Shown here in pieces: positions 23,133-40,203 of a stretch of DNA of 64,000 nucleotides. Made by a program: the position numbers and the translations under genes. The stretch lies in the NCBI GenBank assembly GCA_021821045.1, contig JAKACW010000017.1, positions 1-64,000 of the forward strand, in the 5' to 3' direction. Numbering within the stretch: the stretch's first letter is position 1; every line of letters starts with the position of its first letter. The notes under the pieces are model-generated. The model searched no databases. It saw nothing but the letters and a program-made list of their open reading frames with translations, and had not been told where the DNA came from. The DNA is from Pseudomonadota bacterium. GTDB lineage: Bacteria; Pseudomonadota; Gammaproteobacteria; JAADHS01.

Positions 23133-23240
23133 ATGTTTCCAAGCATTTTAGTACCGATCGTTCTGTTCTTTGGTTTGACTGTATTCGCGGCAAACGCGAT
23201 TACTTCGGCCGCGTTGGACGGTTTACACAAGAAGAAATAA
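23133..23240 (+). CDS. 35-residue single-helix membrane protein
   Basis: A tiny open frame with a very strong GGGAGG ribosome site 6 bases before its ATG. It encodes MFPSILVPIVLFFGL, then a hydrophobic stretch to residue 28, and a basic tail HKKK. Size and shape resemble small accessory subunits of heme-copper oxidases (CcoQ-like), but similarity cannot be asserted. It stands between ggt and the mini-oxidase-like gene at 23345. A hairpin and a terminator follow, so it may be transcribed with ggt or alone. Confidence 0.6.
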   Translation: MFPSILVPIVLFFGLTVFAANAITSAALDGLHKKK

Positions 23241-23280: not shown

Positions 23281-23307
23281 GCTGAGACTAGATTGATTCA
23301 ACAAGAG

Positions 23308-23330
23308 AGCCCGGTTTCCCGGGCTTTTTT
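23308..23330 (+). terminator. Rho-independent terminator
   Basis: A 7-base GC-rich stem (AGCCCGG with CCGGGCT), a 4-base loop and a T6 run. It ends the transcription unit of ggt and/or the 35-residue gene, just before the gene at 23345. Confidence 0.9.
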
Positions 23331-23344
23331 GTCCGCACCGCATC

Positions 23345-23854
23345 ATGATAAATAATTATAATTTCAATTACTTACTTAAATTTGTCGCCACATCGGCTTT
23401 GTCCTTTTTCGTCGGATCCATCCATGGGGTGTTACAGGTCATGCCGGCGGTGCGGGCGTGGCTTGACTCCATCGGCAGTCCCTATGGCGGTCCAGGCCAT
23501 ATGATCGACCCCCTGGCCCATGCTCACATCAATTTGATCGGCGGTGTGACGCTGCTGTGCATCGCCACCAGTTACTTTCTGCTGACGATCATTCGCCAGC
23601 AGGCCATTTACTCGCTACGCCTGGCCAATCTGTCGTTCTGGTTTACCACCATCGGCATCTATTCCTTTTACAGCGTCCTTATCGGATTCGGCATCAAGGA
23701 AGGGGTCATGCTGCTCGCGATGGACCCGGGGCTGGACAGTTTTCACAGTCGCGTTGCCGTCCCGCTGATCGCCCTTACCGCTACCATAATGGGCATCGGT
23801 TTGTGGATGTTCCTCCTCAATGTCGCGCTGACGTTTCGCCAAAAACGCCAATGA
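23345..23854 (+). CDS. Mini heme-copper-oxidase-like membrane protein (CcoN C-terminal fold only)
   Basis: A 169-residue protein with about four membrane segments. Residues 57-168 align with the last three helices of the CcoN encoded at 36727-38133: AHAHINLIGG (His59 and His61) corresponds to the AHAHLALLG heme-ligand motif, and AIYSLRLANLSFWF to KLYSLTLANFHFWF. Helices I-IX, with the copper-ligating histidines and catalytic tyrosine, are missing. One extra His (residue 27) lies in the first helix. It is therefore unlikely to reduce oxygen by itself; it could bind a single heme or act in sensing or assembly. A paralogue lies at 40196. Coupled to the next gene (ATGA). Confidence 0.7.
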   Translation: MINNYNFNYLLKFVATSALSFFVGSIHGVLQVMPAVRAWLDSIGSPYGGPGHMIDPLAHAHINLIGGVTLLCIATSYFLLTIIRQQAIYSLRLANLSFWFTTIGIYSFYSVLIGFGIKEGVMLLAMDPGLDSFHSRVAVPLIALTATIMGIGLWMFLLNVALTFRQKRQ

Positions 23855-24357
23855 TTCTGGAGTGCGGTTGCCCGGATGACTACCCGGGGTGGAACGACGA
23901 AGATATCGATCTCGGCGGAACCTGCGTTCATAGTCTGCCGATCCCCACCCTGTTGCACATGCCACTGGCTTATGAAGCCTACCTGCAGCGTCAGCAGCAC
24001 GAAATCACGCGACTTGAGCTGCCGGAGAAATGGCCAGGCTTCGCTTTGACGAAAACCGGTTGGTTGCGCGGCAGGATCATTCGTTTACTGAACAACGTTC
24101 AGTCGCCGTCGCGCTTCGTCAGCTTCTTGCCTAAACCGTTCAACGTTCGCGCCAAACTGCACAGCGGCGACATCGGTACCATCCGCACGGCGGTCCAAGA
24201 AATCCAGACCAAGCTCCTGAACGATGGCAAGATGCCAAAAGAGCTTTACCTGTGCTATTTGACCTGTCCGCGGTGCCAAGACGCACGGGGCGGAGCCCGC
24301 ATTCTGCTCCTTCGTCGTTGGGAATTTAGCAAGCACCTGCAAAAGCGGGCCACCTAG
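23851..24357 (+). CDS. Unknown protein with possible metal-binding cysteines
   Basis: A 168-residue soluble protein that I do not recognise. The N-terminus has CGC (residues 5-7) followed by acidic DDYPGWNDEDIDLGG and CVH (about 25); the C-terminus has CYLTCPRC (about 133-140). These suggest a zinc or iron site. The middle is basic with hydrophobic strands. Its ATG overlaps the stop of the mini-oxidase-like gene, implying a joint function. No signal peptide or membrane segment is visible. Confidence 0.6.
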   Translation: MILECGCPDDYPGWNDEDIDLGGTCVHSLPIPTLLHMPLAYEAYLQRQQHEITRLELPEKWPGFALTKTGWLRGRIIRLLNNVQSPSRFVSFLPKPFNVRAKLHSGDIGTIRTAVQEIQTKLLNDGKMPKELYLCYLTCPRCQDARGGARILLLRRWEFSKHLQKRAT

Positions 24358-24459: not shown

Positions 24460-25305
24460 ATGGTTTTTTCCACCGACGAATTCAAATTCATCGCCGACAT
24501 GGTCTACAAGCAGGCCGCCATTGTTCTCGATGAAAAGAAAAAGTATCTCGTCGAAGCGCGCTTGTCCAAAGTCATGAACGACGAATTTCTTTGGTCTCCG
24601 AACGAACTCATTACCAAACTCCAAGACTCGGCCAGCACCAAACTGCGCGCCAAAGTCGTGGACGCGATGACCATCAATGAGACGTCATTTTTCCGCGATG
24701 GCCATCCCTATGAAGAACTGCGTCAAAGCTTGATCCCGACCCTGATCAAGACACGCGCCGCGGAGAAGCAGATCAACATCTGGTGCGCTGCCGGCTCGAC
24801 CGGCCAAGAGCCCTACTCCATCGCGATGACCTTGCGCCAGCACTTTCCCGAACTGGCCGCGTGGCGAATAAAGATTATCGCCAGTGACATTTCCGATCGC
24901 GTGCTTGAGCAGGCGCGCTCCGGCCGCTACAGCCAGCTTGAAGTCAACCGTGGGCTCAGTCCGGCTCTGCTTAGCCGCTTCTTTACCCGCGACAAAGACC
25001 ACTGGGTCGCCAACAAGGAACTGAAGGATCTGATCGAATTCAGAAAGGTGAATCTTGTCGAACCGCTCGTCGGCCTGCCAAAGTTTGATCTGATCTTCAT
25101 CCGCAATGTTTTGATCTATTTCAACGTCGGCACCAAAAAGGAAATCCTCGCCAAGATCGCCAAGACCATGCGCCCGGACGGGGCCCTCGTCCTGGGCACC
25201 GCTGAAACGATGCTCGGCGTCACTGATGAGTTCGAGCGTCGAAGCGGCACACGTACCGCGCTTTACACGCTCAAGGCCCAATGCGCAGCAGGGGGTGTGT
25301 CGTGA
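24460..25305 (+). CDS. cheR: Chemotaxis protein methyltransferase CheR
   Basis: A cytoplasmic SAM-dependent methyltransferase that methylates glutamates on chemoreceptors. It has 281 residues: an N-terminal helical CheR_N domain (1-75), then the catalytic domain with NETSFFRDG (about 70), SAM motif I IWCAAGSTGQEPYSIAM (about 107-123), IIASDIS and FIRNVLIYF (about 213-221). No other chemotaxis genes are in the window. The stop overlaps the next gene (GTGA), so CheR and the HDOD protein are coupled, which is unusual for a classical chemotaxis operon. Confidence 0.93.
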   Translation: MVFSTDEFKFIADMVYKQAAIVLDEKKKYLVEARLSKVMNDEFLWSPNELITKLQDSASTKLRAKVVDAMTINETSFFRDGHPYEELRQSLIPTLIKTRAAEKQINIWCAAGSTGQEPYSIAMTLRQHFPELAAWRIKIIASDISDRVLEQARSGRYSQLEVNRGLSPALLSRFFTRDKDHWVANKELKDLIEFRKVNLVEPLVGLPKFDLIFIRNVLIYFNVGTKKEILAKIAKTMRPDGALVLGTAETMLGVTDEFERRSGTRTALYTLKAQCAAGGVS

Positions 25306-26129
25306 TTGATTTAGAGAAACTCATCGCCAGCGCCAACAAACTCGATCCGCTCCCGGATGCGGTTTTGCGACTTGTCGAGCTGCTGCAGAAGCCGGAAGTG
25401 GAACTCAAGGAGATTGAACGCGCCTTCGCCGCGGACGGCGCACTCACAGCGCAATTGCTGCGCCAGGCCAACTCCGCCAGCAGTGCCGCCGTCAACAAAA
25501 TCGGCACGGTGGAGGCTGCCATCGTGCGCCTCGGCCTGGACAGCGTTCTGGCCCTGGCCGTGGGTGCCGCGGCGCAAACCCATCTCAATGCCGCGGCCGC
25601 GCAGTACGGACTGTCCGAGGGAGAGCTATGGCGTCACGGGCAGTACGCGCGGCTGGCGATTGACGGCATGCGCCGGCTGTTGCGCGTAAAAATTCCGCCG
25701 GAAGCCCAGACCGCGGCCCTGCTGCACGATATCGGCAAGGTCGTCATGGCCCGGTTTCTCAAACCGGAAGTGCTAGCTATTCTCCATGAGGCGGACAACA
25801 GCGATGTCGCCGTCAGCCTGGCGGCCGAACGGGAAGTGCTCCAAGTTCATCATGGCGAACTCGGCGGCCTGATCGCCCAACGCTGGCAGCTGCCGGACCA
25901 AATCGTGCGCGGCATTATTTATCATCACACGCCGGAAGAATGTACCGAGATCGACAACAGAATCTGCCACTTGGTATGCATGGCCAATTGGATTGCCAAC
26001 GCCGCAGCGGCGACCCATGCGAATCAAGCTATCGCCGAGCCGATCCCCGCGTCAGCGGAGGTTCTGAAGATCTCCCGCGAGCAAGCGGACCAGTTGATCC
26101 AGTACGTGTTGCGGGAATACGCGGGCTGA
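25302..26129 (+). CDS. HDOD-domain signalling protein
   Basis: A protein of about 275 residues made mostly of an HDOD domain (about residues 8-210). Visible are the N-terminal helical repeat LPDAVLRLVELLQKPE, the VEAAIVRLGLDSVLALAV segment, and LLHDIGKVVMARF, a partial HD motif. HDOD proteins usually signal rather than catalyse. The GTG overlapping the cheR stop is the best start, with no separate ribosome site needed. It is convergent with the oxidase locus that begins at 26152. Confidence 0.88.
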   Translation: MIDLEKLIASANKLDPLPDAVLRLVELLQKPEVELKEIERAFAADGALTAQLLRQANSASSAAVNKIGTVEAAIVRLGLDSVLALAVGAAAQTHLNAAAAQYGLSEGELWRHGQYARLAIDGMRRLLRVKIPPEAQTAALLHDIGKVVMARFLKPEVLAILHEADNSDVAVSLAAEREVLQVHHGELGGLIAQRWQLPDQIVRGIIYHHTPEECTEIDNRICHLVCMANWIANAAAATHANQAIAEPIPASAEVLKISREQADQLIQYVLREYAG

Positions 26130-26151: not shown

Positions 26152-26556
26152 TTAGCTTTGGTCGTTTAGTTGCGGCTCAACGTCCAGCCCAAAGGTCAGC
26201 TCAGCTTGCTCTTTGCCAACACGCAACTGAACGACCAACGGTTGACGAATAGGATCCTCGACGCGAATCGCGCGCCGATAAACACCCGTATGTCCATCCT
26301 GAATCGCTTGACTCCAAGTCGCGCTCGCCGCGCGAACAGACACCACCGCGTTAGGCACCGGAATGCCGCGGGCATCGTTCAGAATCACCCAAAACTCGTT
26401 CATACCCGCCACGGGCGGCGCCGGACGGGATTCAATGCGAACCGTAATGTCACGCCATTTTTGGCTCGGTATAACGTAACGTGGGCCGTCCTCGCCGCAT
26501 CCGACAAGCGCCACACACATCATCGCCATGAGCGCAGAAATGCCTAGAATTCGCAT
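26152..26556 (-). CDS. FixH/YtkA-like lipoprotein of the oxidase locus
   Basis: A 134-residue exported lipoprotein: signal peptide with lipobox ALVGC (Cys20), then an immunoglobulin-like domain (about 35-130) with the FixH/YtkA pattern MNEFWVILND...GIPVPNAVVSV...GVYRRAIRV. FixH/CcoH helps cbb3 oxidase assembly; a YtkA-like role in metal or membrane-protein handling is the alternative. It is the last gene of the minus-strand unit that starts at 34762, and its ATG overlaps the stop of the preceding cytochrome by one base. Confidence 0.6.
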   Translation of the reverse strand: MRILGISALMAMMCVALVGCGEDGPRYVIPSQKWRDITVRIESRPAPPVAGMNEFWVILNDARGIPVPNAVVSVRAASATWSQAIQDGHTGVYRRAIRVEDPIRQPLVVQLRVGKEQAELTFGLDVEPQLNDQS

Positions 26557-26873
26557 CAGTCCGGTTTAGCGTGATTTTGCAGGTATTCAATCACCCGCTT
26601 GAATTCGGGCTCCAACAACCCACCGTAGCCCTTAACCACTCGGTAGTTTTGCATACGGTGAACGATACCGGGCCACTCCGATCGCGTGTGCATATCGGGC
26701 CGGGGGGGAACGTGACACCCAATGCACTTGCTCATCACCAGTTTCGCGCCCGCCGACTCGGGTTCGGGCAAGTCAATATCAATCGGCGCGCGCTGCTCGG
26801 CGGTTGGCTTCTCGCAGCCGGCGAGGACCACTGTCAGTAGAATTACTGCTATCCGATGCGTCACTTTAGTCAA
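26556..26873 (-). CDS. Small one-heme cytochrome c lipoprotein
   Basis: A 105-residue lipoprotein cytochrome. The lipobox VLAGC (Cys20) anchors it on the periplasmic side. A single CIGCH motif (about 50-54) binds heme c, and the distal ligand may be Met in HRMQNYRV (about 73). The reading begins with TTG overlapping the previous stop (TTGA); a GTG three codons later is the alternative. It probably passes electrons within the oxidase complex. It is one of four stand-alone c-type cytochromes in the locus. Confidence 0.85.
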   Translation of the reverse strand: MTKVTHRIAVILLTVVLAGCEKPTAEQRAPIDIDLPEPESAGAKLVMSKCIGCHVPPRPDMHTRSEWPGIVHRMQNYRVVKGYGGLLEPEFKRVIEYLQNHAKPD

Positions 26874-27298
26874 TCCGTGGATGAATGGTCGGACGCTCCG
26901 TCACCGCGCTTGTCATCCGACGACTTGCGCGGCGGCACGCTGAACAAACGCACCATGTAGTAAACGAAGATCGAACCGACCGTCACATAAACGATCGCCG
27001 CACCGAAGCCCCAATTGATCCACTCGCGCTCATAGCCGGGGCGATCGCCCCAGAACGGGAAACTCAAGCCGATGGCAACTAACAGCACGACGACAATGAC
27101 GGCGATAAACCACTTGGGAATGTTGTGCTGGGACTCGGGCACCTTTTCGAGAAGCTCCCAATCCTCCAGCCCGCGTTTGGTTAAGCGCTCTTCGTCAGAA
27201 GCATAACCAAAATGATCCTTGCTCTCTTCGCCCCATTGAACTTCCGTGGGTTTCAATTGCTCTTTAACCGTTCCCGCGTTGCGCGCCGACAATTTCAT
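26870..27298 (-). CDS. Two-helix membrane protein resembling the heme-less N-terminus of CcoP
   Basis: A 142-residue protein with a charged cytoplasmic N-terminus (1-60) and two membrane segments (about 62-82 and 98-118). NIPKWF at the start of helix 1 recalls the PLPKWW signature of cbb3 subunit CcoP, and FPFWGDRPGY follows the helix. No CxxCH motif is present, so it carries no heme. The gene at 35111 has a similar layout (PLWGQRP after its first helix). It may be a structural replacement for CcoP, with hemes provided by separate cytochromes. Confidence 0.5.
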   Translation of the reverse strand: MKLSARNAGTVKEQLKPTEVQWGEESKDHFGYASDEERLTKRGLEDWELLEKVPESQHNIPKWFIAVIVVVLLVAIGLSFPFWGDRPGYEREWINWGFGAAIVYVTVGSIFVYYMVRLFSVPPRKSSDDKRGDGASDHSSTD

Positions 27299-27300
27299 GA

Positions 27301-28626
27301 CTACCGTCCCCCGATAAAGTGATGCACCCGAAAGGTATCCTGCCAGCCGTCATCCGTCGTCACCCGCACGAGGAAAGGCGTCAGCCCATCCCGCAACTGC
27401 TGTGAATCAAGATTGAGTGTGACGTCGGTTCGGCCCGCGGTTGCGAATTCCACGCGTTCGCGATCGAGCGTGTACGCGCCGTCGGGCAGCCCTTCCACGC
27501 TGATTCGAGCCGCCGTCGGATAATAAAACTTGGAAGCCAGATTGATCCGATACTCGTTGATCTGCGCGCCATGGTGCACCTCGGAGCGATACACGGTGTA
27601 GTGATAGCCCTCGTATGTGCCCAAGCCCCACACGAACATCACCGCCCCCAAAGCCATCCACGGCGACGTCCATATCAATCGATTCTTCAGTCCCGACAGA
27701 CCAGTGCGGGCGTTGGCGATATCATCCCGGCGATTCGGACCAAACGCGAAGCTGAGCAACCCCGGGCCGCCGTTTTTCTTGGCCTGCAGCGTGCTGCACG
27801 CCGTAACGCACTCGCCGCAGTTGATGCAGGTATCGAAAACGTTGGTCTTGCGCGGATCGATATCGATAAAACACGACGTCACGCAGTAGTTGCACTTGCG
27901 GCAAGCGTCGGAGCGGGACTCATCGTAGGCGATGTGCAAAGTCTCTTTGGTTTTGAAAATGTGCTGCCAGACCTTGTAAATGCACATGAAGCGGCACATG
28001 AAGTGCCGGATGAACACGATGTCGAGAAAAATGATCAGCACGAAAACCGTGTAGATCCAGTGCAGGGAACCGGCCAGGCGCGCGTCGTCTTGAAACGTGA
28101 TAAACGACCACACCACGTCCGGCGTATAAAAGTAGAACAGCGGAATCAGCGCCAGCGCCATCGATACCGACAAGAAAATGAGGCCGAGGGCGAACCAATT
28201 GAACCAGCGATCTTTGTCGCGGGAGATCTTCATGGGCTGGCCGTCCAGCATCACTTCGGCTCGCTTTCCCAGCAGCCGTCGCGTTAGCAGGTTGGCCCAT
28301 TCGGAAAACGTATTCTGCGGGCACGCCCACCCGCAAAACACGGTGCCGGCGATCGAGTACAGCGCCACCAGCGCCGAGGCGACGAAGAACCAGAATCCGA
28401 ACACGATGAAGAAGTCTGAAAACCAAATCTGGCGGTCGAGCACCACGAAAGCGCCGTCAACCGGGTCGATGCGAAACAGCCCCGTAATCGGGATCAACAG
28501 GGCCAGCAAAATCATGCCCCACTGCACGCTGCGGCGATACCAATGTAGACGCTGCGATGGTTGCCGCGGCGCCTGCACCGCAACCACCGGAATTTGCGCT
28601 AAAGTCTTGTTAATATTAGAAGTCAT
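27301..28626 (-). CDS. ccoG: CcoG/RdxA/FixG-type membrane ferredoxin
   Basis: A 441-residue inner-membrane protein of the cbb3 assembly family that handles copper or electrons. It has about five membrane segments. CGWACPQNTFSEW (about 97) and two [4Fe-4S] sites CRKCNYCVTSC (about 241) and CINCGECVTAC (about 268) match the family, as does a C-terminal immunoglobulin-like domain from about residue 345 to 440. In classical operons ccoG leads ccoGHIS; here it is followed by heme-less, cytochrome and FixH-like genes, and no ccoI is seen. Confidence 0.92.
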   Translation of the reverse strand: MTSNINKTLAQIPVVAVQAPRQPSQRLHWYRRSVQWGMILLALLIPITGLFRIDPVDGAFVVLDRQIWFSDFFIVFGFWFFVASALVALYSIAGTVFCGWACPQNTFSEWANLLTRRLLGKRAEVMLDGQPMKISRDKDRWFNWFALGLIFLSVSMALALIPLFYFYTPDVVWSFITFQDDARLAGSLHWIYTVFVLIIFLDIVFIRHFMCRFMCIYKVWQHIFKTKETLHIAYDESRSDACRKCNYCVTSCFIDIDPRKTNVFDTCINCGECVTACSTLQAKKNGGPGLLSFAFGPNRRDDIANARTGLSGLKNRLIWTSPWMALGAVMFVWGLGTYEGYHYTVYRSEVHHGAQINEYRINLASKFYYPTAARISVEGLPDGAYTLDRERVEFATAGRTDVTLNLDSQQLRDGLTPFLVRVTTDDGWQDTFRVHHFIGGR

Positions 28627-28676
28627 GGTGTTTTCTCGTCCCGCAAGACTACCACAATTTGCAGGGCTTTTGATAG

Positions 28677-31343
28677 CTAGCCTTCGGCGCTTTTGCCGCC
28701 GGGCGACTCTGGCGTCAGCCTGCGCAGAGGATCAATACGCTGCAGTCGCTGCAAAACCTCGGCGGCGGGCTCGCTTCGGCCCAAGCCCTCCAAGGTGCGC
28801 CACAACGCTTCCAGAACCTCGGGATGCTCCGGCGCTACCTTGAGGATCGCCTCGATGGCGTCCAGGCGCCCGATGTCGGGACCCGTTTCCGATACTACGC
28901 TGAGCAGCATCTCATCCGCCAGCTGATATGAGATCCACTGATCCGCCGGATTCGCCTCATAGGCAAGGCGGAGTAATCTCAACGCTTCGCCTTGCCGACC
29001 GCTGAGCCGCATGTGCCAACTTCGCACCGCCAAATCCGTTCCGATGAAGGCGCGCTCGAACGGTTCGCGTGCAGCCTCGGGCAAATCAAACTCCTCCACA
29101 ACGTTCCTCAATAGCGGACGCTGCTTGAGCAGAAAATCAAGAACGCTTTTGACGTCAATCGCCCCACCGTAGCGGGCGGCGGGCAAGCGGTACTCGACTT
29201 GCGGCCACCACTCGTCTTGTATGGGCCCTGAATCGGTGACGATAGTTCCCCAATACCGGCCAAGCCACGTCCAAGGACCTTCTCCACCGGTAGCGCCGGC
29301 GATCTGCTCCGTCGACATCCGCGAGAGCGCACCCTGCATCGCCCTTCCCCAGTCGACGTCCGCACCATTGGTTCCCACCATGGCCAGGCGAAATCCGTCG
29401 ACAAAAAGCGCGTTGCGTGGGAAGGCCTGCGCAAAACTTCGCAGCACAATTTCGAGCGACTTAACGTCGAACTGGTTAACAGCCAACCACTGGGCAAACA
29501 CGCCGTTCTCGTTGAGATGATCACGGGCGCGCTCGAACTGTTGAACGGAAAGCAGGGTGCTGCGCCCAACCAGATCGGGATGGAACAGATCGCCGACGAT
29601 GACGTCGAAGCGCCCGGCGTCGGACTTTAGGAACCGGCGGGCATCGTCGCGAACGATCTCGGCCTTTTCCATAACACCACGGTTGCTCGTCGCGAAGTAA
29701 GTTCCAGCCGCTTCGATCGCGCCGGCGGCAAGCTCCACGGCGGTGATGTTAAGTCCGTCGAAGTCCAACGCGGCGGACGCCGAGATTCCAGTTCCCAATC
29801 CGAGCAGCAACACGTCCCGGGGTTGTGGGTGCAGCAGCAACGGGAGTCTGACTTGGTTGCGCTGCGAGGTCACCGCGCTCGGCGCCGTGGACGCATCCAT
29901 GCGCTGCAGGTCCGACAACAGCAGGCGCTGGCCGTCGGCCTGTTCGACGACGTGAGTCACGGCGATCGCATCCTCGTTGACCCAGCGTTGTTCAGTGCCG
30001 GCAAGGGTATGCGGCAACAGTTTCGCCGCAGCGGGCAGCGACACGACCGGCACCGCGATTGCAACGAGGGGAACCGCCCCAAGCCACAACCTTCTGTCGT
30101 CAACCCAGTACATGCCGGCGGCGAACAGGATCAGGCTCGCGATGACGATGGACGCGGCGCTGCCCACTCCCGGCAATAGAGCGAACGCTGTCACCGCCGC
30201 GCCCAAGGCGCCACCCAGACAGTTCGCACCATAAAGCTGCGCCGCCGCCCGCGGTGAATCGCCGCTGCGCCGCACCAGCAGCGGGAGCCAGGCACCAAGC
30301 ACCAAGGTTACCGGCAAGGTCACCAGCATCAACAGCCCGCCCTGCGCCATGAGCGCACCATCCAGAGTTTGAAATTCCGCGCCATCGGCCCAAGTCCCGA
30401 CGGCGGGCAGCACCCACAGGCTTAACAGTGCGAAGGAACTTGCGATCAGCGGGAAAATCACTCCCCACCGTTCCACCCAGGGTCGCCGGGCCAGAAAACT
30501 GCCCAAACCGATGCCAATAAGATAGACGCTGAGGATCACCGCCAGCACGTATTCCGTGCGCAGCAGCACCATGCCGTAAAGACGCACCCACGCCACTTCC
30601 AGCACAAGCGCCGCGCAGCCAATGCAACCGTAGGCGATCAAGGTGCCGATGGCCGGATGAGAGTCCGAGTTCGTCGCGCCATTGGCTGAAGCCGCTCGCT
30701 GCTCCGGCCGATCGATCCGCCGACTCAAGGCCAGCGCGCCAATCCCAATGCACACCCCGGCACCCGCGGTACCGATGACACTGACCGTCCATCCCAGGCC
30801 CGGCAGCAACACCAGAGGCACCAATGCTCCGAGCGCGGCGCCGACGGTATTGGCGCCGTAGACATCGGCCAGGGGCAACTCAACGGAGCGCGCGGCCGAT
30901 ACCACCATGGGAAACACAAAGCCCATCCCAAACGTCGGCACGCTGAGCACCAGCACAGCGGCGATCGCTTGGGCGCCGTGCCACAGACCGACCGAGCCGC
31001 CGCTGGTGAGTTGGAATAGCCCGGCGTCGAGCGAAGACTGAATCGGCGGCAGCAACAGGGCGAAGAAGGCGATGGCGATCTCGATGACGCCGAATAGAAA
31101 AAGCGGCTTTGCGATCCCGCCCACGCGACGCTGGGCCACGATACTGCCCGCGCCCAACCCCAACATGAAGGCAATGGTCGTAACGGCCACGCCGAAAATA
31201 CTGACCCCAAATACCGTGGCCAGCCAGCGCGCCCACAGCACTTGGTAAACCAGCGCGACGGCGCCGGAGACAAAGTAGAGACTCAGCAAACCAAGTCGGC
31301 TGACTAGGGCGGAAGGGGGCGCGACGACTAAGGCGTGGTTCAC
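28677..31343 (-). CDS. Multi-pass membrane protein fused to a spermidine-synthase-like domain
   Basis: An 888-residue protein starting with GTG. Residues 1-480 contain about 12-14 membrane segments of the type that precedes spermidine-synthase-like domains. Residues about 510-690 are a Rossmann methyltransferase-like domain with the SAM loop LLLGLGTGISASAALDF (about 537) and IVGDLFHP (about 603). The C-terminal 150 residues look helical, TPR-like. Such proteins are widespread but their substrate is not established; polyamine synthesis is unproven. It sits inside the oxidase unit, 28 bases after 31372-31761 and 50 bases before ccoG. Confidence 0.75.
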   Translation of the reverse strand: MNHALVVAPPSALVSRLGLLSLYFVSGAVALVYQVLWARWLATVFGVSIFGVAVTTIAFMLGLGAGSIVAQRRVGGIAKPLFLFGVIEIAIAFFALLLPPIQSSLDAGLFQLTSGGSVGLWHGAQAIAAVLVLSVPTFGMGFVFPMVVSAARSVELPLADVYGANTVGAALGALVPLVLLPGLGWTVSVIGTAGAGVCIGIGALALSRRIDRPEQRAASANGATNSDSHPAIGTLIAYGCIGCAALVLEVAWVRLYGMVLLRTEYVLAVILSVYLIGIGLGSFLARRPWVERWGVIFPLIASSFALLSLWVLPAVGTWADGAEFQTLDGALMAQGGLLMLVTLPVTLVLGAWLPLLVRRSGDSPRAAAQLYGANCLGGALGAAVTAFALLPGVGSAASIVIASLILFAAGMYWVDDRRLWLGAVPLVAIAVPVVSLPAAAKLLPHTLAGTEQRWVNEDAIAVTHVVEQADGQRLLLSDLQRMDASTAPSAVTSQRNQVRLPLLLHPQPRDVLLLGLGTGISASAALDFDGLNITAVELAAGAIEAAGTYFATSNRGVMEKAEIVRDDARRFLKSDAGRFDVIVGDLFHPDLVGRSTLLSVQQFERARDHLNENGVFAQWLAVNQFDVKSLEIVLRSFAQAFPRNALFVDGFRLAMVGTNGADVDWGRAMQGALSRMSTEQIAGATGGEGPWTWLGRYWGTIVTDSGPIQDEWWPQVEYRLPAARYGGAIDVKSVLDFLLKQRPLLRNVVEEFDLPEAAREPFERAFIGTDLAVRSWHMRLSGRQGEALRLLRLAYEANPADQWISYQLADEMLLSVVSETGPDIGRLDAIEAILKVAPEHPEVLEALWRTLEGLGRSEPAAEVLQRLQRIDPLRRLTPESPGGKSAEG

Positions 31344-31371
31344 GGCGTTCCCCGAAAAAATGCGGCGCGGA

Positions 31372-31761
31372 CTAGTACGGATAGAACCAGACGACGGCCA
31401 CCACCGAATGCGCGATCGCCAGTGTAACGCTCAGGCCGGCACAGACCATGTGGGGAACAAACAGTGGTTTGCCATAAACGCCAGTGGCAATTCCAAAGTA
31501 TGCGGTCAAAAGGAGCAGCACCAGCAGCGAGATGCCCATCAGAAACATGATCTGGTGCTTTTCTTTCGTCGTCAGTTCATTGGATTGACGACGCTCTTCT
31601 TCAATCGCGTGAAACCCCTCCAACACCTGGGCCGCTTCCGCGGCCGTTTGGCCCTCTTCCTTCGCGGTTGCTTTTGCGGGTAATACCATCGCGCCTAAAC
31701 ATAGAGCAACGAGGACCAAGAAAGTAGAAAAATTGAATCCGCCGGTTCTTATGAATGACAT
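31372..31761 (-). CDS. Three-helix membrane protein with a histidine pair
   Basis: A 129-residue protein that I do not recognise. A signal-anchor (about 10-30) is followed by an acidic, helical linker (35-70) and two membrane segments (about 69-90 and 98-127). The last helix carries His at both ends, HMVCAGLSVTLAIAH, spaced 14 residues apart, a pattern compatible with heme b ligation but not proof of it. It is between the 95-residue gene and the spermidine-synthase-like gene in the same unit. Confidence 0.6.
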   Translation of the reverse strand: MSFIRTGGFNFSTFLVLVALCLGAMVLPAKATAKEEGQTAAEAAQVLEGFHAIEEERRQSNELTTKEKHQIMFLMGISLLVLLLLTAYFGIATGVYGKPLFVPHMVCAGLSVTLAIAHSVVAVVWFYPY

Positions 31762-31771
31762 GCCGGATCCG

Positions 31772-32059
31772 TCACCGGTTAAGGGTTTCGTCAGGCTCGG
31801 GCGGCTGCGCTTGTTTGGGCTGTTCGGCGCGCCGGGTTGCGAACCGCCAGTACAGAAACGCCATCAGAATGAAGGGCGATAACACCACTGGGAGCAAAAA
31901 GAGAAAGATGGCCCACGGGGTTTCGATCGTCACATGCAGGTAGCGATAACTGTCGAACGCGAAAGCCTCACTCGATGTCAAAACAAGAACCAATGCCATA
32001 GCGGATGGCGGCAACCGAAGGCCGCGACGAGATATGGGAGATTGTTTGGCAAACAACAT
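31772..32059 (-). CDS. Small membrane protein of the oxidase locus
   Basis: A 95-residue protein: N-terminal signal segment (about 18-34, ending AFA), a short periplasmic stretch YLHVTIETPW, one membrane helix (about 48-68, FLFLLPVVLSPFILMAFLYW) and a proline-rich cytoplasmic tail. A GGAG site lies 9 bases upstream. No family is recognised. It sits 5 bases from the FGE-fold gene and 10 bases from the next gene, so it belongs to the same transcript. Confidence 0.6.
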   Translation of the reverse strand: MLFAKQSPISRRGLRLPPSAMALVLVLTSSEAFAFDSYRYLHVTIETPWAIFLFLLPVVLSPFILMAFLYWRFATRRAEQPKQAQPPEPDETLNR

Positions 32060-32064
32060 ACAAC

Positions 32065-33150
32065 CTACTCCGTTTTAGAAATCTCAGATGTCTGTGCGGC
32101 GTCGGCCGCGCAACGAAAGCCGAAAAAGTCCGACGCGTAGTGCGGCCATGAGTAATTGCGATGATAAGCCGCACTTGAAAACGGATCGCTCTTCCAGGAT
32201 CCGCCGCGCAGAACCTTGTAACGCTCATTGGTCGGGACCAGGTCGACAACCTTCATCGCCTGGTCGTGCGGGGTATTGGCCACGGCCACCTTGCCCTGAA
32301 ACAAACTGGCCGGCGCCGCCGATCCCTCGTAAGGCGTAAAGTCGTCAGCCATCCACTCATTGACATTGCCCGACATATCCATCACGCCATACGGACTTGC
32401 GCCTTGCGGATACCGAGTAACATCGGTGGCCGAACCCACGTTGTAATACGTGTTGAGTCGCTGGACATCCATTGTATCGCCCCACGGCCAGCGGCGCCCG
32501 TCGCTACCGCGCGCGGCCTTCTCCCACTCTTTCTCGGTGGGCAGACGTTTGCCGACAAACTGACAATAGCGTGATGCGTCGTACCAGGACACCATGGTTA
32601 CGGGTTGCAGCTCTTGCCCCTGACGGATCTTACCGCTCTCCCAATTCAAGGGTGGTCTATGTCCTGCGCGCACCACAAACCGCGCGTACTGCGCGTTGGT
32701 CACCGGATATTTATCGATGCGATACGCGTCAGTCGTCGCGACATGTTGCGGCTTATTCTCTTCGTTGGATCGGGCGAAATCCGTTCCCATGATGAACTCG
32801 CCGGCGGGAATATCGACAAGCGCGTCCAGATCCGCCCACATATCAGCGGGCAATAATGTATCAACCTCGTCGATCGAATACCCGACGACGGTGCGCGATG
32901 CAAACTCGTGGAGATCCTGGCGCTGTAGTTCTTCGCCCGCGGCGCGAATCTTGCTCGGCATTTCCGCCAGATCGTAGCCCGCCTTGCTCTTCATTTCCTC
33001 CATGCGATTAGACCCAAGCTTAACCACATGAATGGCGCCGCCGATCATGGCGGCCGCAACGCAAGTCACCAACGTTGCAGTCAAGTAACGCTTGCGCTGC
33101 TGGCGGGCGCCTTCGCTCTGGGGAACTCGGTAATTGGTCGTCAGTGCCAT
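32065..33150 (-). CDS. Membrane-anchored FGE/SUMF1-fold protein without catalytic cysteines
   Basis: About 361 residues. One N-terminal membrane anchor (about 24-42) places the FGE-sulfatase domain (about 110-355) in the periplasm. Signatures are DIPAGEFIMGTD, DKYPVTNAQYARFV, RLPTEKEWEKAARG, DMSGNVNEWMAD and LRGGSW...FGFRCAAD. The tyrosine/cysteine-rich active-site segment of true formylglycine-generating enzymes is replaced by KSDPFSSAAYHRNYSW without cysteine, so a binding or assembly role is more likely. Related NirV proteins accompany nitrite reductases. An alternative start at 33168 adds six residues. Confidence 0.85.
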   Translation of the reverse strand: MALTTNYRVPQSEGARQQRKRYLTATLVTCVAAAMIGGAIHVVKLGSNRMEEMKSKAGYDLAEMPSKIRAAGEELQRQDLHEFASRTVVGYSIDEVDTLLPADMWADLDALVDIPAGEFIMGTDFARSNEENKPQHVATTDAYRIDKYPVTNAQYARFVVRAGHRPPLNWESGKIRQGQELQPVTMVSWYDASRYCQFVGKRLPTEKEWEKAARGSDGRRWPWGDTMDVQRLNTYYNVGSATDVTRYPQGASPYGVMDMSGNVNEWMADDFTPYEGSAAPASLFQGKVAVANTPHDQAMKVVDLVPTNERYKVLRGGSWKSDPFSSAAYHRNYSWPHYASDFFGFRCAADAAQTSEISKTE

Positions 33151-33177
33151 AACTGTGAATACCCGCATCGAGGGGCG

Positions 33178-33648
33178 TCAGGCGGCGTCATTCTCGCCGA
33201 CTTCAGTCGTCGCCGCTTTTTTTTTGTAAACCAAATGCCGGGGCCGCCGGCCATACGTCTTTTTCGCAACGATTTCTCCGAACACGCCGCCGATGGCCGC
33301 GGCTTCAATGGCCACGATCACCAGCAGAATCCAATAGGGGATGGGCAGCAACATCATGCCATCGGGCACGCCCGACCCGTAGACGGCATCGAGGTAGCTC
33401 ACAACGCGCACAATGAGGGGAGAAAAGTAACACCAAATCTTCCCTCCCAAACCATAAATCAGAGAGACGGTTAGCCCCGCGAAGACGGGAACGAGAAAAA
33501 GATCGAGGATCCAGGCGGCGGAAAACGTGTAAGGGCCCATAAAAAACTCAAGCCGAACCCCCAAAAGACGATCTCCGAGGTAATTGACCAAAGCCCCAGC
33601 GCCAATGGACACGCAAATCATCACAACATTGAGTACGCGCTGGTTCAT
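33178..33648 (-). CDS. Four-helix membrane protein, unknown
   Basis: A 156-residue integral membrane protein with segments at about 5-25, 39-62, 65-85 and 100-122 and a basic C-terminal tail rich in Lys/Arg. No cysteine pair or clear heme-ligand pattern is visible. The ATG at 33648 has GGGGAG 9 bases upstream and is preferred to the adjacent GTG. Position between the cytochrome at 33655 and the FGE-fold protein suggests a membrane subunit or assembly factor of the oxidase. I do not recognise a family. Confidence 0.6.
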   Translation of the reverse strand: MNQRVLNVVMICVSIGAGALVNYLGDRLLGVRLEFFMGPYTFSAAWILDLFLVPVFAGLTVSLIYGLGGKIWCYFSPLIVRVVSYLDAVYGSGVPDGMMLLPIPYWILLVIVAIEAAAIGGVFGEIVAKKTYGRRPRHLVYKKKAATTEVGENDAA

Positions 33649-33654
33649 CACAAT

Positions 33655-34155
33655 TTACTCCCCGCTCTCCCCGTTTAGACTCTTGCCCGTTAATTTTTCA
33701 AACTCTCGATTCCGAGTCTCCTCAAGATACCAGTCCTCAACCTTGAGCGTGGCCATGTACGCGGCCAGGGTGCGGCGCTCCGTTTCTGGCATGTGCGCGA
33801 ATGACGGCATTCGATATTCCGCTTTCAACCGCGAAGGCAGTATTGCTTGCGGATCCGGCGCCGAAAAATAAGTATAGAACCACGTCTCGTCCTTCAGCGA
33901 CCCTAAACCGTCAAGCGGTGGCGCCGGCACAGCCTGCATCGGATCACGAATCGTCCACATCGCGTGGCACTTGCGGCATTCCAAATCCTTGATCAGCTTC
34001 TCGCCCGCCGCCCGTAGCTCAGGACTGGCAGTCGTATAAAAAGGAATCCGCCCTTGCTCTGGGTCAAAGTGCGAGGCCTTGAACGCATTGACAATCACGC
34101 CGCCGACGACCAACAACGCCACGCCGCCGAATATTACCTTCTCGCCCTTCTTCAT
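33655..34155 (-). CDS. Membrane-anchored one-heme cytochrome c
   Basis: A 166-residue cytochrome with an N-terminal membrane anchor (about 8-24) preceded by KKGEKVIFGG. The heme motif is CRKCH (60-64) and the distal Met is in YRMPSF (about 114), a class I cytochrome c pattern. Its anchor motif GEK-V-I-F-G recurs in the cytochrome at 40704 (QGEKILFG), so these two are probably paralogues. They could supply the heme c groups that CcoP carries in ordinary cbb3 oxidases. The gene is coupled to the CcoS-like gene by an ATGA overlap. Confidence 0.88.
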   Translation of the reverse strand: MKKGEKVIFGGVALLVVGGVIVNAFKASHFDPEQGRIPFYTTASPELRAAGEKLIKDLECRKCHAMWTIRDPMQAVPAPPLDGLGSLKDETWFYTYFSAPDPQAILPSRLKAEYRMPSFAHMPETERRTLAAYMATLKVEDWYLEETRNREFEKLTGKSLNGESGE

Positions 34156-34424
34156 TCTCGCCGTTGCTTTTCTTCTTCTTTTTGTTTGAGTACTTCTTCA
34201 CGCCGCTTCATCTGTTTCTCCAGAACCTCGCGGGACTTTTTGTACTCTTCGGGCGACATCTTATCCTTATCGTTTTCATCGAACACCAGATATTTGATGT
34301 CCTCATCAAACTGCTCATTTTTAGCTGCCCACCGAATGCCAATAATGGCCGCGATGACGATCAGGGCACCGGCAACCAGCCAGATGTAGATTGTCCAGCC
34401 GTCGGGCAGATTGTCTAGATTCAT
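34152..34424 (-). CDS. CcoS/FixS-like oxidase assembly protein with a charged tail
   Basis: A 90-residue protein with one membrane helix (about 12-30). The segment IIGIRWAAKNEQFDEDIKYL, followed by VFDEND, matches the CcoS/FixS pattern (W-A-xx-GQFDDL...IL-DD), a protein needed to insert cofactors into cbb3 oxidase. A 45-residue charged coiled-coil-like tail (EEYKKSREVLEKQMKRREE) is an addition to the usual 45-60-residue family. A GAGGGAG ribosome site lies 8 bases upstream of the ATG. CcoI, the usual neighbour, is not seen. Confidence 0.55.
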   Translation of the reverse strand: MNLDNLPDGWTIYIWLVAGALIVIAAIIGIRWAAKNEQFDEDIKYLVFDENDKDKMSPEEYKKSREVLEKQMKRREEVLKQKEEEKQRRE

Positions 34425-34435
34425 GAGTTCTCCCT

Positions 34436-34762
34436 CTAAAAGAGTTGACCGTGCAGCAACTGGGTTGCGCCCATTATGATGGCCGCCACTATACCCAAAA
34501 ATATCCAGGCAAACATAATCTTCTCACCCAGCTTCAATTTCTTACCCTTGCCGGTGAGCATGAACTTCACCACAATCGCCGTAAAAACGATGATAGAAAT
34601 AATGAGGAAAATAAAAATCCCGACGCTAAACTCCTGGCTGCGAGTTCCCTCTATCCCCCATTCCTGCTCCGTCTCCTCTACCATGGTGGCTGTTGATGCC
34701 GGAACTTGCGTGGTATCGGACTGCGCGAGCAGCAGAGGTACAACTTGATTTAGTTCAGACAT
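34436..34762 (-). CDS. Two-helix membrane protein, first gene of the downstream unit
   Basis: A 108-residue protein with an acidic N-terminal region (1-42) and two membrane helices (about 46-68 and 83-102). The loop between them, GKKLKLGEKIMFAW, carries the same GEK-hydrophobic-F motif found before the anchors of the cytochromes at 33655 and 40704, hinting at a shared membrane interface. No family recognised. It is the first gene after the terminator at 34853, so a promoter should lie in 34763-34850; I see no convincing -35/-10 pair there. Confidence 0.6.
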   Translation of the reverse strand: MSELNQVVPLLLAQSDTTQVPASTATMVEETEQEWGIEGTRSQEFSVGIFIFLIISIIVFTAIVVKFMLTGKGKKLKLGEKIMFAWIFLGIVAAIIMGATQLLHGQLF

Positions 34763-34852
34763 GTATCACTCGAGTCAATTAGACCTTAGTCCCCTTCCCG
34801 GGTTCACAGTGCGACAACCGCTCGAACTGCAACAGTACAGGGGGGAAAGGGG

Positions 34853-34880
34853 AAAAAAAACGCCGCTTTTAGGGCGGCGT
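34853..34880 (-). terminator. Strong rho-independent terminator of the ccoN unit
   Basis: Read on the minus strand: stem ACGCCGC with GCGGCGT, a 7-base loop, then eight T. It separates the ccoN-ccoO unit (38629 to 34956) from the downstream unit starting at 34762. Confidence 0.9.
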
Positions 34881-34916
34881 CCGATGCTCACAGTCTATCG
34901 TTGTTATTATTCGGGT

Positions 34917-34942
34917 GGTAGCGGAGCGAGTCCTCCGCTACC
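34917..34942 (-). other. Perfect hairpin just before the terminator
   Basis: A 10-base perfect stem (GGTAGCGGAG with CTCCGCTACC) and a 6-base loop, 13 bases after the stop of the 41-residue gene. It lacks a T-run and may protect the 3' end of the ccoN mRNA. Confidence 0.6.
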
Positions 34943-34955
34943 GAGTCCCAACCAC

Positions 34956-35081
34956 CTAGGTCTTGATTTGGGGGCTTTCTTTATCGTAGTTGTCGATAAA
35001 GAAGCTATAAATAAACGGTGCGGTGAACACGAATATTATGATCCCCAACATACAGAGCGGCGGATTATCGATATCAATCAT
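34956..35081 (-). CDS. 41-residue single-helix protein in the ccoN unit
   Basis: A tiny gene with a strong AGAAGGAGA ribosome site 6 bases before the ATG. It encodes MIDIDNPPLCMLG, a hydrophobic helix (about 11-28) and a polar tail FIDNYDKESPQIKT. Size and single helix suit a CcoQ-like small subunit. It is the last gene before the terminator and follows the 208-residue gene at 35111. Family assignment is not possible by eye. Confidence 0.65.
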   Translation of the reverse strand: MIDIDNPPLCMLGIIIFVFTAPFIYSFFIDNYDKESPQIKT

Positions 35082-35110
35082 TTCAGTTCTCCTTCTAACC
35101 TGTTATCCGA

Positions 35111-35737
35111 TCAATGGCCGGCGTGGGTCGGAACCCAGCTGAACTCGGGCAAACGCTTGACAGCGATCACAACCGCGACACAGAAGTAGATCACGTAAAA
35201 GACGTCGATCGTGTACCCCTTGTCCCAATGTGGCTGCTTGCGGATCGTGGAGCCGTCGGGCTTCTTCTCGCCTTCAAAATTGGCAAGCGTAACCCACGGA
35301 CCGATGATGGTGTACTCCTCAAGGTCAACACCCTTCCGCTCAAGCTCGATGACCTGATCCTTAATAAGCATCAGATCGTCCCACTCGACAGGATGACGCT
35401 CTTGCAGTGCCTCGTACTTCGAGCCTTTGGACTTAACCGCATTCACGATGTACTCGACCTTGCCGTTTGGATCGGCAATGCTTTGTACCTGTGGGTCATC
35501 CATCAGAGCAACGTACTCTTGATAAATGGCCGCTTGCGGTCGTTGACCCCACAAAGGCGCGGTAATGAGAAACGCCGTTAGGATCGTCAGTGCCAAGAGC
35601 CAAATTACCGGGCGCGGAAGGCGATTGTTGTCTTCCTTAATACCGCCCAGACTCTCTCTTGCCCACAACTCTTTGGCCGCTTTGTTTTGTGCGTCATCGG
35701 TTAATGACACAAGCGGTGCATCAAATCTCCAACCCAT
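35111..35737 (-). CDS. CcoP-like two-helix protein without heme motifs
   Basis: A 208-residue protein. A cytoplasmic N-terminus (1-40) leads to helix 1 (about 43-62) introduced by NRLPRPVIW, with PLWGQRP at its end. A soluble domain of about 110 residues follows, then a second helix (about 176-194, VFYVIYFCVAVVIAV). The P-R/K-P-W entry and position after ccoN-ccoO suggest the slot of CcoP, but no CxxCH is present. The protein at 26870 has the same helix-1 exit motif. A GGGGA site precedes the ATG. Confidence 0.55.
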   Translation of the reverse strand: MGWRFDAPLVSLTDDAQNKAAKELWARESLGGIKEDNNRLPRPVIWLLALTILTAFLITAPLWGQRPQAAIYQEYVALMDDPQVQSIADPNGKVEYIVNAVKSKGSKYEALQERHPVEWDDLMLIKDQVIELERKGVDLEEYTIIGPWVTLANFEGEKKPDGSTIRKQPHWDKGYTIDVFYVIYFCVAVVIAVKRLPEFSWVPTHAGH

Positions 35738-35751
35738 GTTAATCCCCTCCC

Positions 35752-36702
35752 CTATTTGAGACTCAGAACGAAGTCCATCAGATACCGAATGTCGCTCTTA
35801 GGCGCATAGTCCGGTACTTCCGGTGGATAAACGCGCTCGCCTGCGGCGTACTTGGTGTACTCCGCACGCCATTGATCGAAATCGATCGGCTTGCCGTTTG
35901 CGTCGTTCTTACCCCACAGGTAGTCGAAGCGGGGCATAATGGAGTGAGGCTGAACCAAACGTGGATTGAAGAAGTGCATCATCATCCACTCTTTGGAAGA
36001 GTTGCGTGATCCGACGTGCAGCAAGTCGGGCGCCTTTCGGTCCGAACCAAACGCGGTCGGTGATTCACTGTTGAAGTCACCGAGACGTGGCGGAACGCCG
36101 AACACCTGCCAGTCCTGAGTTTGCTCAGGCAGCAAGGTATGGCACCACCAGCACCCTTCGCGGACGAACATGATTTTGCCCGATCCCACGTAGGCTGAGT
36201 TTTCATCCCCTGCAGCGTCGAGCACCTGCTGTGGATTCCAGTTTCGAGTGACGCTCGCGTTTTCGATGTAAGCCGTCACTTCTCCACCAGCTTCCGCGTG
36301 GGCAACTACGAACACAGCGCCTTTCTGGTGATCAGCTTCGTTGATGCGACCTTTGGTCGTGCTCAACTCGGCTACCACTTTGCCTGCCGTGCGCGGATGG
36401 TTGATCGCGCTGGGGAACGGAACCCCAGGCGGATAAACATACGCGTGGATCGGATCGATTGGCTGATTGGTTGCCGGATCCTTGTCCAATGTCACGGTGA
36501 CAGGTTTGCCTTCGCCTCTCATGAGCGGATCCTCGTATGAGAATCCGCCGATTCGACCGTAGGAAAGCGCCTTTTGAAGACCCCACTCCGTAGATCCGAC
36601 GAGTACGATGTCAGACGTCGGGAAGTACAGGGTGATCATCATGGAGCCACCCAAAGCGGCACCAAACATTCGTGCCCCAATTTTATACTCTCTAAATGCC
36701 AC
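35752..36702 (-). CDS. ccoO: CcoO-like one-heme cytochrome c subunit, long form
   Basis: The membrane-anchored cytochrome c subunit that feeds electrons to CcoN. It has 316 residues against about 200 for ordinary CcoO. One anchor helix lies at about 12-35; the heme motif CWWCH is at 184-188, preceded by FVREG as in CcoO, and the distal Met is in IMPRFDYLW. Conserved KAPDLLHVG and FFNPRLVQPHS also match CcoO. The extra 120 residues lie between the anchor and the heme domain and look like beta structure. The start is a GTG with GGGAGG 9 bases upstream, 24 bases after ccoN. Confidence 0.88.
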   Translation of the reverse strand: MAFREYKIGARMFGAALGGSMMITLYFPTSDIVLVGSTEWGLQKALSYGRIGGFSYEDPLMRGEGKPVTVTLDKDPATNQPIDPIHAYVYPPGVPFPSAINHPRTAGKVVAELSTTKGRINEADHQKGAVFVVAHAEAGGEVTAYIENASVTRNWNPQQVLDAAGDENSAYVGSGKIMFVREGCWWCHTLLPEQTQDWQVFGVPPRLGDFNSESPTAFGSDRKAPDLLHVGSRNSSKEWMMMHFFNPRLVQPHSIMPRFDYLWGKNDANGKPIDFDQWRAEYTKYAAGERVYPPEVPDYAPKSDIRYLMDFVLSLK

Positions 36703-36726
36703 GTTAAATTCCTCCCTAGTAAGTTC

Positions 36727-39690: not shown

Positions 39691-40203
39691 CTAGCCTTTC
39701 TGATTCGACTTCAATACAGATTGTATCGCGGCATCGAATTCGCCATACAGCATTCGACCCGGCTGCTTGAATCGCACCACATTGTTCGGGTCGATCAGAT
39801 ATGTCCAAGGATCTCCCATGACCTTGAATGCTTTGAATGCTTCAGGGTTCTGATACTGATCCATGTGCAGAAAGATCACCCGATCCTGGTACTCGGTGAC
39901 CAGCGCCTTGAGAATTTGGAGTTGCTTGTCACATACCGTGCAGTGACCCGGCGTCGCAAACTCAACAAGTATTGGCTTTCCTGACTTGAGCGCCTCATCC
40001 AGGGATACCTGGTACATCCGTTCGTCTGGGTAACGATAACTCGTTATCCTGCTAAAATCGCCCCCGACATCTTGCAGCGTTTTTGTTTTCACGGCCGGGG
40101 CTGTCTGCCCCACCTTCAGGGTGCTCCCGTCCTCATAACAGCCTCCGGCCAGCAACACCCCAGCTGCCAACAAGACCCCCGAAAACCAAGACGGCTTAAC
40201 CAT
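39691..40203 (-). CDS. Thioredoxin-fold lipoprotein with a CxxC motif
   Basis: A 170-residue lipoprotein: signal peptide with lipobox LLAGGC (Cys22), then a thioredoxin-fold domain (about 65-168). PILVEFATPGHCTVCDKQL carries the redox motif CTVC (about 88-91), and a cis-Pro region follows (GDPWTYLID). Candidates for its job are reducing heme-attachment cysteines or delivering copper, as TlpA- and Sco-like proteins do. Sco proteins would have CxxxC plus a distal His, which is not the pattern here. It overlaps the mini-oxidase-like gene by 8 bases. Confidence 0.8.
   Translation of the reverse strand: MVKPSWFSGVLLAAGVLLAGGCYEDGSTLKVGQTAPAVKTKTLQDVGGDFSRITSYRYPDERMYQVSLDEALKSGKPILVEFATPGHCTVCDKQLQILKALVTEYQDRVIFLHMDQYQNPEAFKAFKVMGDPWTYLIDPNNVVRFKQPGRMLYGEFDAAIQSVLKSNQKG

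Follow-up and report, generated by a model that had tools for sequence, protein, structure and literature searches.

A single-repeat CcoN-like membrane protein at the edge of a cbb3-like oxidase locus

The window analyzed here is a 64,000-nucleotide stretch of one contig. It contains a cbb3-like oxidase locus and, beyond the end of that locus, a short gene resembling part of ccoN. This gene, referred to as mini2, raises the question of whether it encodes a working protein or is what is left of a larger one, and of what such a protein might do for the oxidase. The first-pass annotation had described it as a second mini-oxidase protein outside the main locus, coupled to an unknown Cys-rich protein. 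The features discussed are given in Table 1.

Table 1. Features of the window discussed in the text
Feature	Position	Strand	Description
sm35	23133-23240	+	35-aa single-helix membrane peptide MFPSILVPIVLFFGLTVFAANAITSAALDGLHKKK; purine-rich ribosome-binding stretch upstream
Hairpin	23306-23331	+	GC-rich stem then T run, terminator-like, between sm35 and mini2
mini2	23345-23854	+	169-aa four-helix single-repeat CcoN-like protein
Partner	23851-24357	+	168-aa soluble protein, PF20603, predicted GyrI/BmrR-C/SOUL-like fold
CheR methyltransferase and HDOD protein	24460-26129	+	Between the mini2 unit and the oxidase genes, outside the unit
cbb3-like oxidase locus	26152-38133	-	Co-occurs with mini2; contains the genes from CcoG to CcoN below and others
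CcoG	27301-28626	-	Oxidase locus
Spermine-synthase-domain protein	28677-31343	-	Large membrane protein
FGE-sulfatase protein	32065-33168	-	Formylglycine-generating-like
FixS-like	34152-34424	-	Oxidase locus
FixP_N-like	35111-35737	-	Oxidase locus
CcoO	35752-36702	-	Oxidase locus
CcoN	36727-38133	-	Oxidase locus
mini1	40196-40711	-	First single-repeat CcoN-like paralogue

The mini2 protein and its relation to CcoN

mini2 has His27 in its first helix, His52, an HAH motif at residues 59-61 and the segment IYSLRLANLSFWF at 88-100. The predicted model (pLDDT 90.9) has four long helices (8-30, 56-84, 91-124 and 130-166) and a short one (34-42). The first-pass description of the protein held when checked against the sequence, namely an HxH pair at 59 and 61, His27 in helix 1, the likeness of IYSLRLANLSFWF to LYSLTLANFHFWF of CcoN, and the lack of CuB ligands, which are missing because helices VI and VII are absent. 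The described layout was also confirmed. The partner start at 23851 lies inside the mini2 stop (ATGA), the partner contains CGC (residues 5-7) and CYLTCPRC (135-142), and the oxidase genes lie on the opposite strand with 2.3 kb to 26152. The HAH end probably faces the periplasm as in CcoN, as the charge distribution would place Arg84, Arg92 and the basic C-terminus inside. Only two other genes of the source genome matched mini2, mini1 and ccoN, both inside the window. No match to mini2 was found on plasmids.

The Pfam family COX1 (PF00115) matched mini2 with an E value of 1.9e-8 and 34.0 bits, just below the cut-off of 34.8, at profile positions 309-412, which are the C-terminal helices. COX1 was matched by all 70 aligned mini2 homologues, with a best E value of 2.6e-15. 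The CcoN equivalog TIGR00780 gave an E value of 2.5e-7 and 30.0 bits, far under its curated cut-off of 583. The catalytic subunits of PF00115 are defined by twelve helices and six conserved histidines, which serve two hemes and CuB, and mini2, with 169 aa and four helices, keeps the helix-X pair alone. As one four-helix repeat with no CuB ligands and no catalytic Tyr it cannot be an oxidase by itself.

The helices of heme-copper oxidases are arranged with pseudo-threefold symmetry. When the mini2-family profile was searched against solved structures CcoN was found (best E value 7e-11). Three stretches of 9g6b_A aligned with the profile. One covered helices IX/X-XII, another the VI-VII junction, and in the third, at residues 16-173, the mini2 HAH region was matched to that of the helix-II His. 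Profile-profile comparison (hhalign) of mini2 with CcoN of these genomes gave 98.9% for helices IX-XII, 96.2% for V-VIII and 90.5% for I-IV. The values for mini1 were 99.6, 95.7 and 94.8%, respectively. As controls, the mini2 profile in reverse and six membrane profiles of unrelated genes in those loci reached 16% or less. mini1 and mini2 match all three CcoN repeats and therefore each is a free-standing single heme-copper oxidase repeat. The result of these profile comparisons is that a free single repeat matches each third of CcoN in sequence. Since the last third is the strongest match, derivation from the C-terminal part of CcoN is at least as likely as the survival of an ancestral unit.

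The best matches of the mini2 model among known structures were CcoN chains, with TM-scores of 0.71-0.74 over the whole of mini2 and Foldseek E values of only 0.009-0.09. With the CcoN of cbb3 (C-type) oxidases (PF00115; 8smr_E, 3mk7_A, 9g6b_A) mini2 shares the sequence and fold of helices IX-XII, the helix-X His-x-His and the YSLxLAN...FWF segment. Unlike CcoN it is approximately one third of the length and lacks the CuB ligands, the cross-linked Tyr and the helix-II His, while His27 and His52 are its own.

In mini1, His51, HTH at 59-61, His97 and His101 were invariant in 13 rows. DUF2871 (PF11070), a family of small membrane proteins of unknown function, resembles mini1 and mini2 in being a single small polytopic protein. 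It matched mini1 weakly over nearly the full length (E value 6.6e-4, 20.4 bits, under the cut-off of 27.4) and did not match mini2, so neither was assigned to it.

The match to all three repeats, with TM2 aligned to ligand-bearing helices and with no match from the reversed and unrelated membrane profiles, would also be in keeping with mini1 and mini2 forming an oligomeric b-type cytochrome of their own, separate from the oxidase. Four-helix repeats would be arranged around a threefold axis and neighboring repeats would share each heme, one supplying His59 and the other His61, in the way that helices II and X of oxidases are bridged by the low-spin heme. This is improbable, and the strict linkage to one oxidase described below speaks against an independent complex. 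A version in which the oligomer rebuilds the heme-copper fold from unfused repeats, as a symmetric multi-heme membrane cytochrome serving the oxidase, is likewise a long shot. If true, the oligomer would offer a present-day model for the four-helix unit that gave rise to the three-repeat oxidase subunit, whether by retention or by secondary simplification.

Conservation of mini2 and linkage to the oxidase

A genome scan with an alignment of ten relatives confirmed 218 stretches encoding mini2, and the best 80 loci of the 218, all in other genomes, were taken. The sources include Mariprofundus and other Zetaproteobacteria, Gallionella, Gallionellaceae, Candidatus Nitrotoga, Candidatus Tenderia and uncultured Gammaproteobacteria including Chromatiaceae. 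In these best 80 of 218 the mini2 frame was stop-free throughout, with no broken copy or frameshift. His52, His59 and His61 were present in 81 of 81 rows and His27 in 80 of 81, and Asp55 and Asn63 were likewise invariant. His27 is replaced by Gln in L011 and also in the more distant form of mini2 (L012/L156). Pairwise dN/dS had a median of 0.22 and a maximum of 0.51 (pairs with dS 0.1-1.5). A tree of third-repeat sequences, with modest basal support and some long branches, placed mini1 and mini2 in separate groups, both apart from CcoN. mini2 is a real family under purifying selection and is distinct from mini1.

The first-pass annotation had favored a functional family over a decayed fragment. 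It had proposed that substitution patterns be compared among homologues and had named truncated or frameshifted remnants, or loss of the His pair, as the contrary outcome. Neither remnants nor loss of the pair were seen in the best 80 of 218 loci, and the substitution pattern was one of purifying selection. That mini2 is most similar to helices IX-XII could be taken as a sign of a decayed C-terminal fragment of a duplicated ccoN. However, the gene is intact and conserved across Beta-, Gamma- and Zetaproteobacteria, and the invariant histidines, a dN/dS of about 0.2 and the separate tree group leave this reading with almost no credence; a ccoN remnant was ruled out on these grounds.

The gene order around mini2 is also conserved. 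A homologue of the gene at 26152 was located within approximately 10 kb of mini2 in 59 of the best 80 loci of 218, usually convergent and adjacent. In the same 80, CcoG was found near mini2 in 55 and the gene at 28677 in 50. The usual order is mini2 (with the partner) followed by a convergent 26152-26870-CcoG series, and contig ends account for many of the remaining loci. CheR was found in none of these 80 related loci (best 80 of 218) and the HDOD protein gave one weak match. The location outside the main locus is therefore not the rule. In most relatives mini2 is a conserved edge of the oxidase locus, and the CheR-HDOD pair intervenes only here. G037 has a more distantly related mini2 whose gene directly precedes ccoN and ccoO in the same orientation.

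A number of other features of these loci were observed. The product of 35111-35737 has a weak FixP N-terminal match and no CxxCH motif and is possibly a CcoP-like subunit without heme c. The FGE-sulfatase protein was in the oxidase locus in 38 of the best 80 loci of 218. A relative of the spermine-synthase-domain protein adjoins a very distant mini2-like gene (L157:6210-6700, G076), in which the first His of the pair is apparently replaced (LALGHIFN) and beside which no ccoN match was found. Two genomes (L093 with L097, L094 with L114) have a second mini2 beside a LysR-type regulator with no partner or oxidase genes nearby. Another free-standing small heme-copper oxidase-like protein, with the motif IHGHVMLLGF in a 154-codon open frame, was seen in L159 (G021), and its sequence suggests that single-repeat proteins may be a wider class.

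In a set of 76 relative genomes, nearly every one of a different family, mini2, the partner and mini1 had strong matches only in the same nine. The oxidase-specific marker 35111 was found in eight of these; in the ninth, G035 (86% complete), a 217-codon open frame indicates that CcoN is cut by a contig end. In a sample of 299 genomes mini2 and oxidase markers were found together in 37, mini2 only in eight and oxidase only in four, or 24, two and one, respectively, at a completeness of at least 90%; the Fisher value for this sample is not independent evidence because nearly all positives are from one family. Twelve genomes were reached through mini2 loci. mini1 was present in all twelve and a long CcoN of the same type in 11, while the twelfth, a fragmented MAG (G377), had mini1 and mini2 only. 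In Zetaproteobacteria, Gallionella, Ca. Nitrotoga, Ca. Tenderia and related Gammaproteobacteria the co-occurrence of mini2, mini1 and this CcoN is nearly perfect. The co-occurrence that the first-pass annotation proposed to look for, of the mini2-partner pair with the oxidase, was thus borne out for mini2. The partner does not go with mini2 in every genome: it was missing from seven of seven betaproteobacterial genomes examined, all of which keep mini2 and mini1.

The soluble partner and the upstream peptide

The partner was present in all five gamma- and zetaproteobacterial genomes of the same comparison. In one genome (G002) partner and mini2 are on different contigs. As an obligatory component the partner is ruled out by its absence from the seven betaproteobacterial genomes. 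At L122:10483-11022 the partner gene has an in-frame stop or frame break and mini2 is intact. At L123:7188-10722 hemA and prfA, with which a heme biosynthesis operon begins, come immediately before mini2 and the partner; this may be coincidence.

The first-pass annotation was right about the cysteine motifs: Cys5, Cys7, Cys139 and Cys142 were found in 57 of 57 rows. "Unknown" no longer applies in full, as the model (pLDDT 93.4) has a GyrI/BmrR-C/CTR107/SOUL-like fold. PF20603 (Bact_hydrolase) matched the partner with 30.1 bits, over the cut-off of 27, and matched 55 of 55 homologues at E values up to 0.1. No solved relatives were found by sequence search and the fold search alone gave matches. 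These were the EcmrR C-terminal domain, CTR107, the Lin2189 hydrolase and BmrR, with E values from 1e-4. The heme-binding proteins p22HBP and SOUL had probabilities of 0.95-0.97 but weak E values of 0.08-0.1, and ranked behind the GyrI/BmrR-type entries. The predicted fold is similar to that of the GyrI-like/BmrR C-terminal/SOUL-HBP group (CTR107, EcmrR, Lin2189 hydrolase, p22HBP) at a TM-score of approximately 0.6. In contrast to those entries the partner has no DNA-binding domain and carries four invariant cysteines close to its ends.

BmrR-type regulators contain GyrI-like domains. Together with the translational coupling of mini2 to the partner and the CheR-HDOD neighbors in this genome, the partner fold could indicate a gas or redox sensor in which mini2, as a heme-bound membrane receptor, would signal to the partner. 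However, the partner lacks a DNA-binding domain and is absent in Betaproteobacteria, and the CheR-HDOD neighbors are peculiar to this genome. A sensor is very unlikely.

The peptide sm35, encoded upstream of mini2, and the hairpin that follows it were overlooked in the first-pass annotation. An sm35 profile gave 39 matches among 27,733 small frames (loci and window), of which 35 were directly upstream of mini2 on the same strand and four elsewhere; 12 of the matched sites were used to build the profile and were found by construction. The profile did not find sm35 in zetaproteobacterial loci. Hairpins comparable to the one between sm35 and mini2 were present in 26 of 34 homologous gaps compared to 54 of 680 random stretches. 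A simple single-window scan found hairpin sites no commoner than in shuffles and listed this stem on the minus strand only, so the hairpin claim rests on the gap comparison. The mini2 start is approximately 14 bases past the T run with no room for a promoter of its own. mini2 is therefore probably expressed by read-through at a reduced level.

Possible function of mini2

The reading preferred, tentatively and from sequence and predicted structure, is that mini2 ligates heme and serves this cbb3-like oxidase, a type used by iron-, nitrite- and cathode-oxidizing Proteobacteria, as its dedicated accessory or assembly protein. Its histidines, placed as in CcoN near the periplasmic helix ends, would hold heme b, with the site formed by mini2 alone or in a homo- or hetero-oligomer with mini1. 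It would act in biogenesis of the oxidase, either by holding and handing over heme b or by stabilizing nascent CcoN through mimicry of helices IX-XII. In genomes that have it, the cytosolic partner would assist without being required, and its GyrI/SOUL-like cradle may bind heme, a heme precursor or another hydrophobic ligand. The evidence consistent with this includes the homology and fold match to CcoN IX-XII, the histidines (52, 59 and 61 invariant, His27 in 80 of 81), the absence of broken copies, the median dN/dS of 0.22, the co-occurrence with the oxidase, the synteny with the CcoG side of its locus, the mini2-like gene directly upstream of ccoN in G037, and the partner fold of GyrI/BmrR-C/CTR107 type with its weaker p22HBP/SOUL matches. 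Some points count against it. The partner is the main hint of heme handling but is absent from Betaproteobacteria, and it is cytosolic whereas the predicted cofactor sites are near the periplasm. GyrI-like domains bind many ligands and the SOUL/HBP matches are weak (E value approximately 0.1). The positives of the 299-genome sample are nearly all from one family and are not independent events.

A subunit would show the same strict co-occurrence, and the G037 operon position would suit it equally. Together with mini1 and the 35-aa peptide, mini2 could be a permanent extra part of the enzyme which brings in one or more additional b hemes or packs on CcoN at the site of CcoP/CcoH in canonical cbb3 oxidases. 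The near one-to-one co-occurrence with the oxidase, the G037 gene order cyt-mini-ccoN-ccoO, the invariant His set and a single-helix peptide of the size of small oxidase subunits all agree with this, and a subunit role is the main rival, somewhat less likely than the preferred reading. Against it, mini2 is encoded at the far end of the locus and on the other strand, beside maturation genes and behind a terminator-like hairpin, and nothing in CcoN needs complementing because CcoN has all its ligands by sequence. Complementation of a defective CcoN by mini2 was ruled out, as the His of helix II, the His of helix VI, Tyr...HH and HAH are all present in the sequence of this CcoN. What tilts the balance towards an assembly helper is the hairpin, the maturation genes around mini2, and the ligand-binding fold of the cytosolic partner. 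A mini2 level below that of the upstream peptide, as read-through of the hairpin would give, would be more in keeping with a helper than with a stoichiometric subunit.

Proximal and distal cbb3 oxidases (the forms of Ducluzeau et al.) with a Cyc1-type cytochrome nearby are described for Sideroxydans ES-1, Gallionellaceae and Zetaproteobacteria in the portions available of three reports (PMC8788666, PMC10734462, PMC7029218). Those oxidases appear to share with this locus the organism groups, CcoN and CcoO, and the nearby Cyc1-type cytochrome. Excerpts of further reports give a single cbb3-type oxidase for Ca. Nitrotoga fabula (PMC6050957) and several oxidase-like gene groups for Ca. Tenderia, with "complex IV-2" among the most highly expressed (PMC5371394). 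As an identity for the locus, the undecaheme Uet system of Tenderia was considered and dropped, since it is described as a porin-multiheme system (PMC10734462). No mention of free-standing single-repeat proteins was found in the available text of these reports, supplementary tables aside, nor of sm35 or the partner in that of the three on iron-oxidizer cbb3 oxidases.

The terminal oxidase of neutrophilic iron oxidizers and Ca. Nitrotoga is described in the available text as a cbb3 oxidase with CcoN and CcoO. To its gene set the present analysis adds two CcoN-like proteins, each a single repeat and conserved along with the other, and a small membrane peptide found in many of the genomes. mini1, mini2 and the peptide may explain what is special in this oxidase and provide genetic markers of it. 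A natural single-repeat protein would also allow a laboratory test of the origin of heme-copper oxidases from a triplicated four-helix unit.
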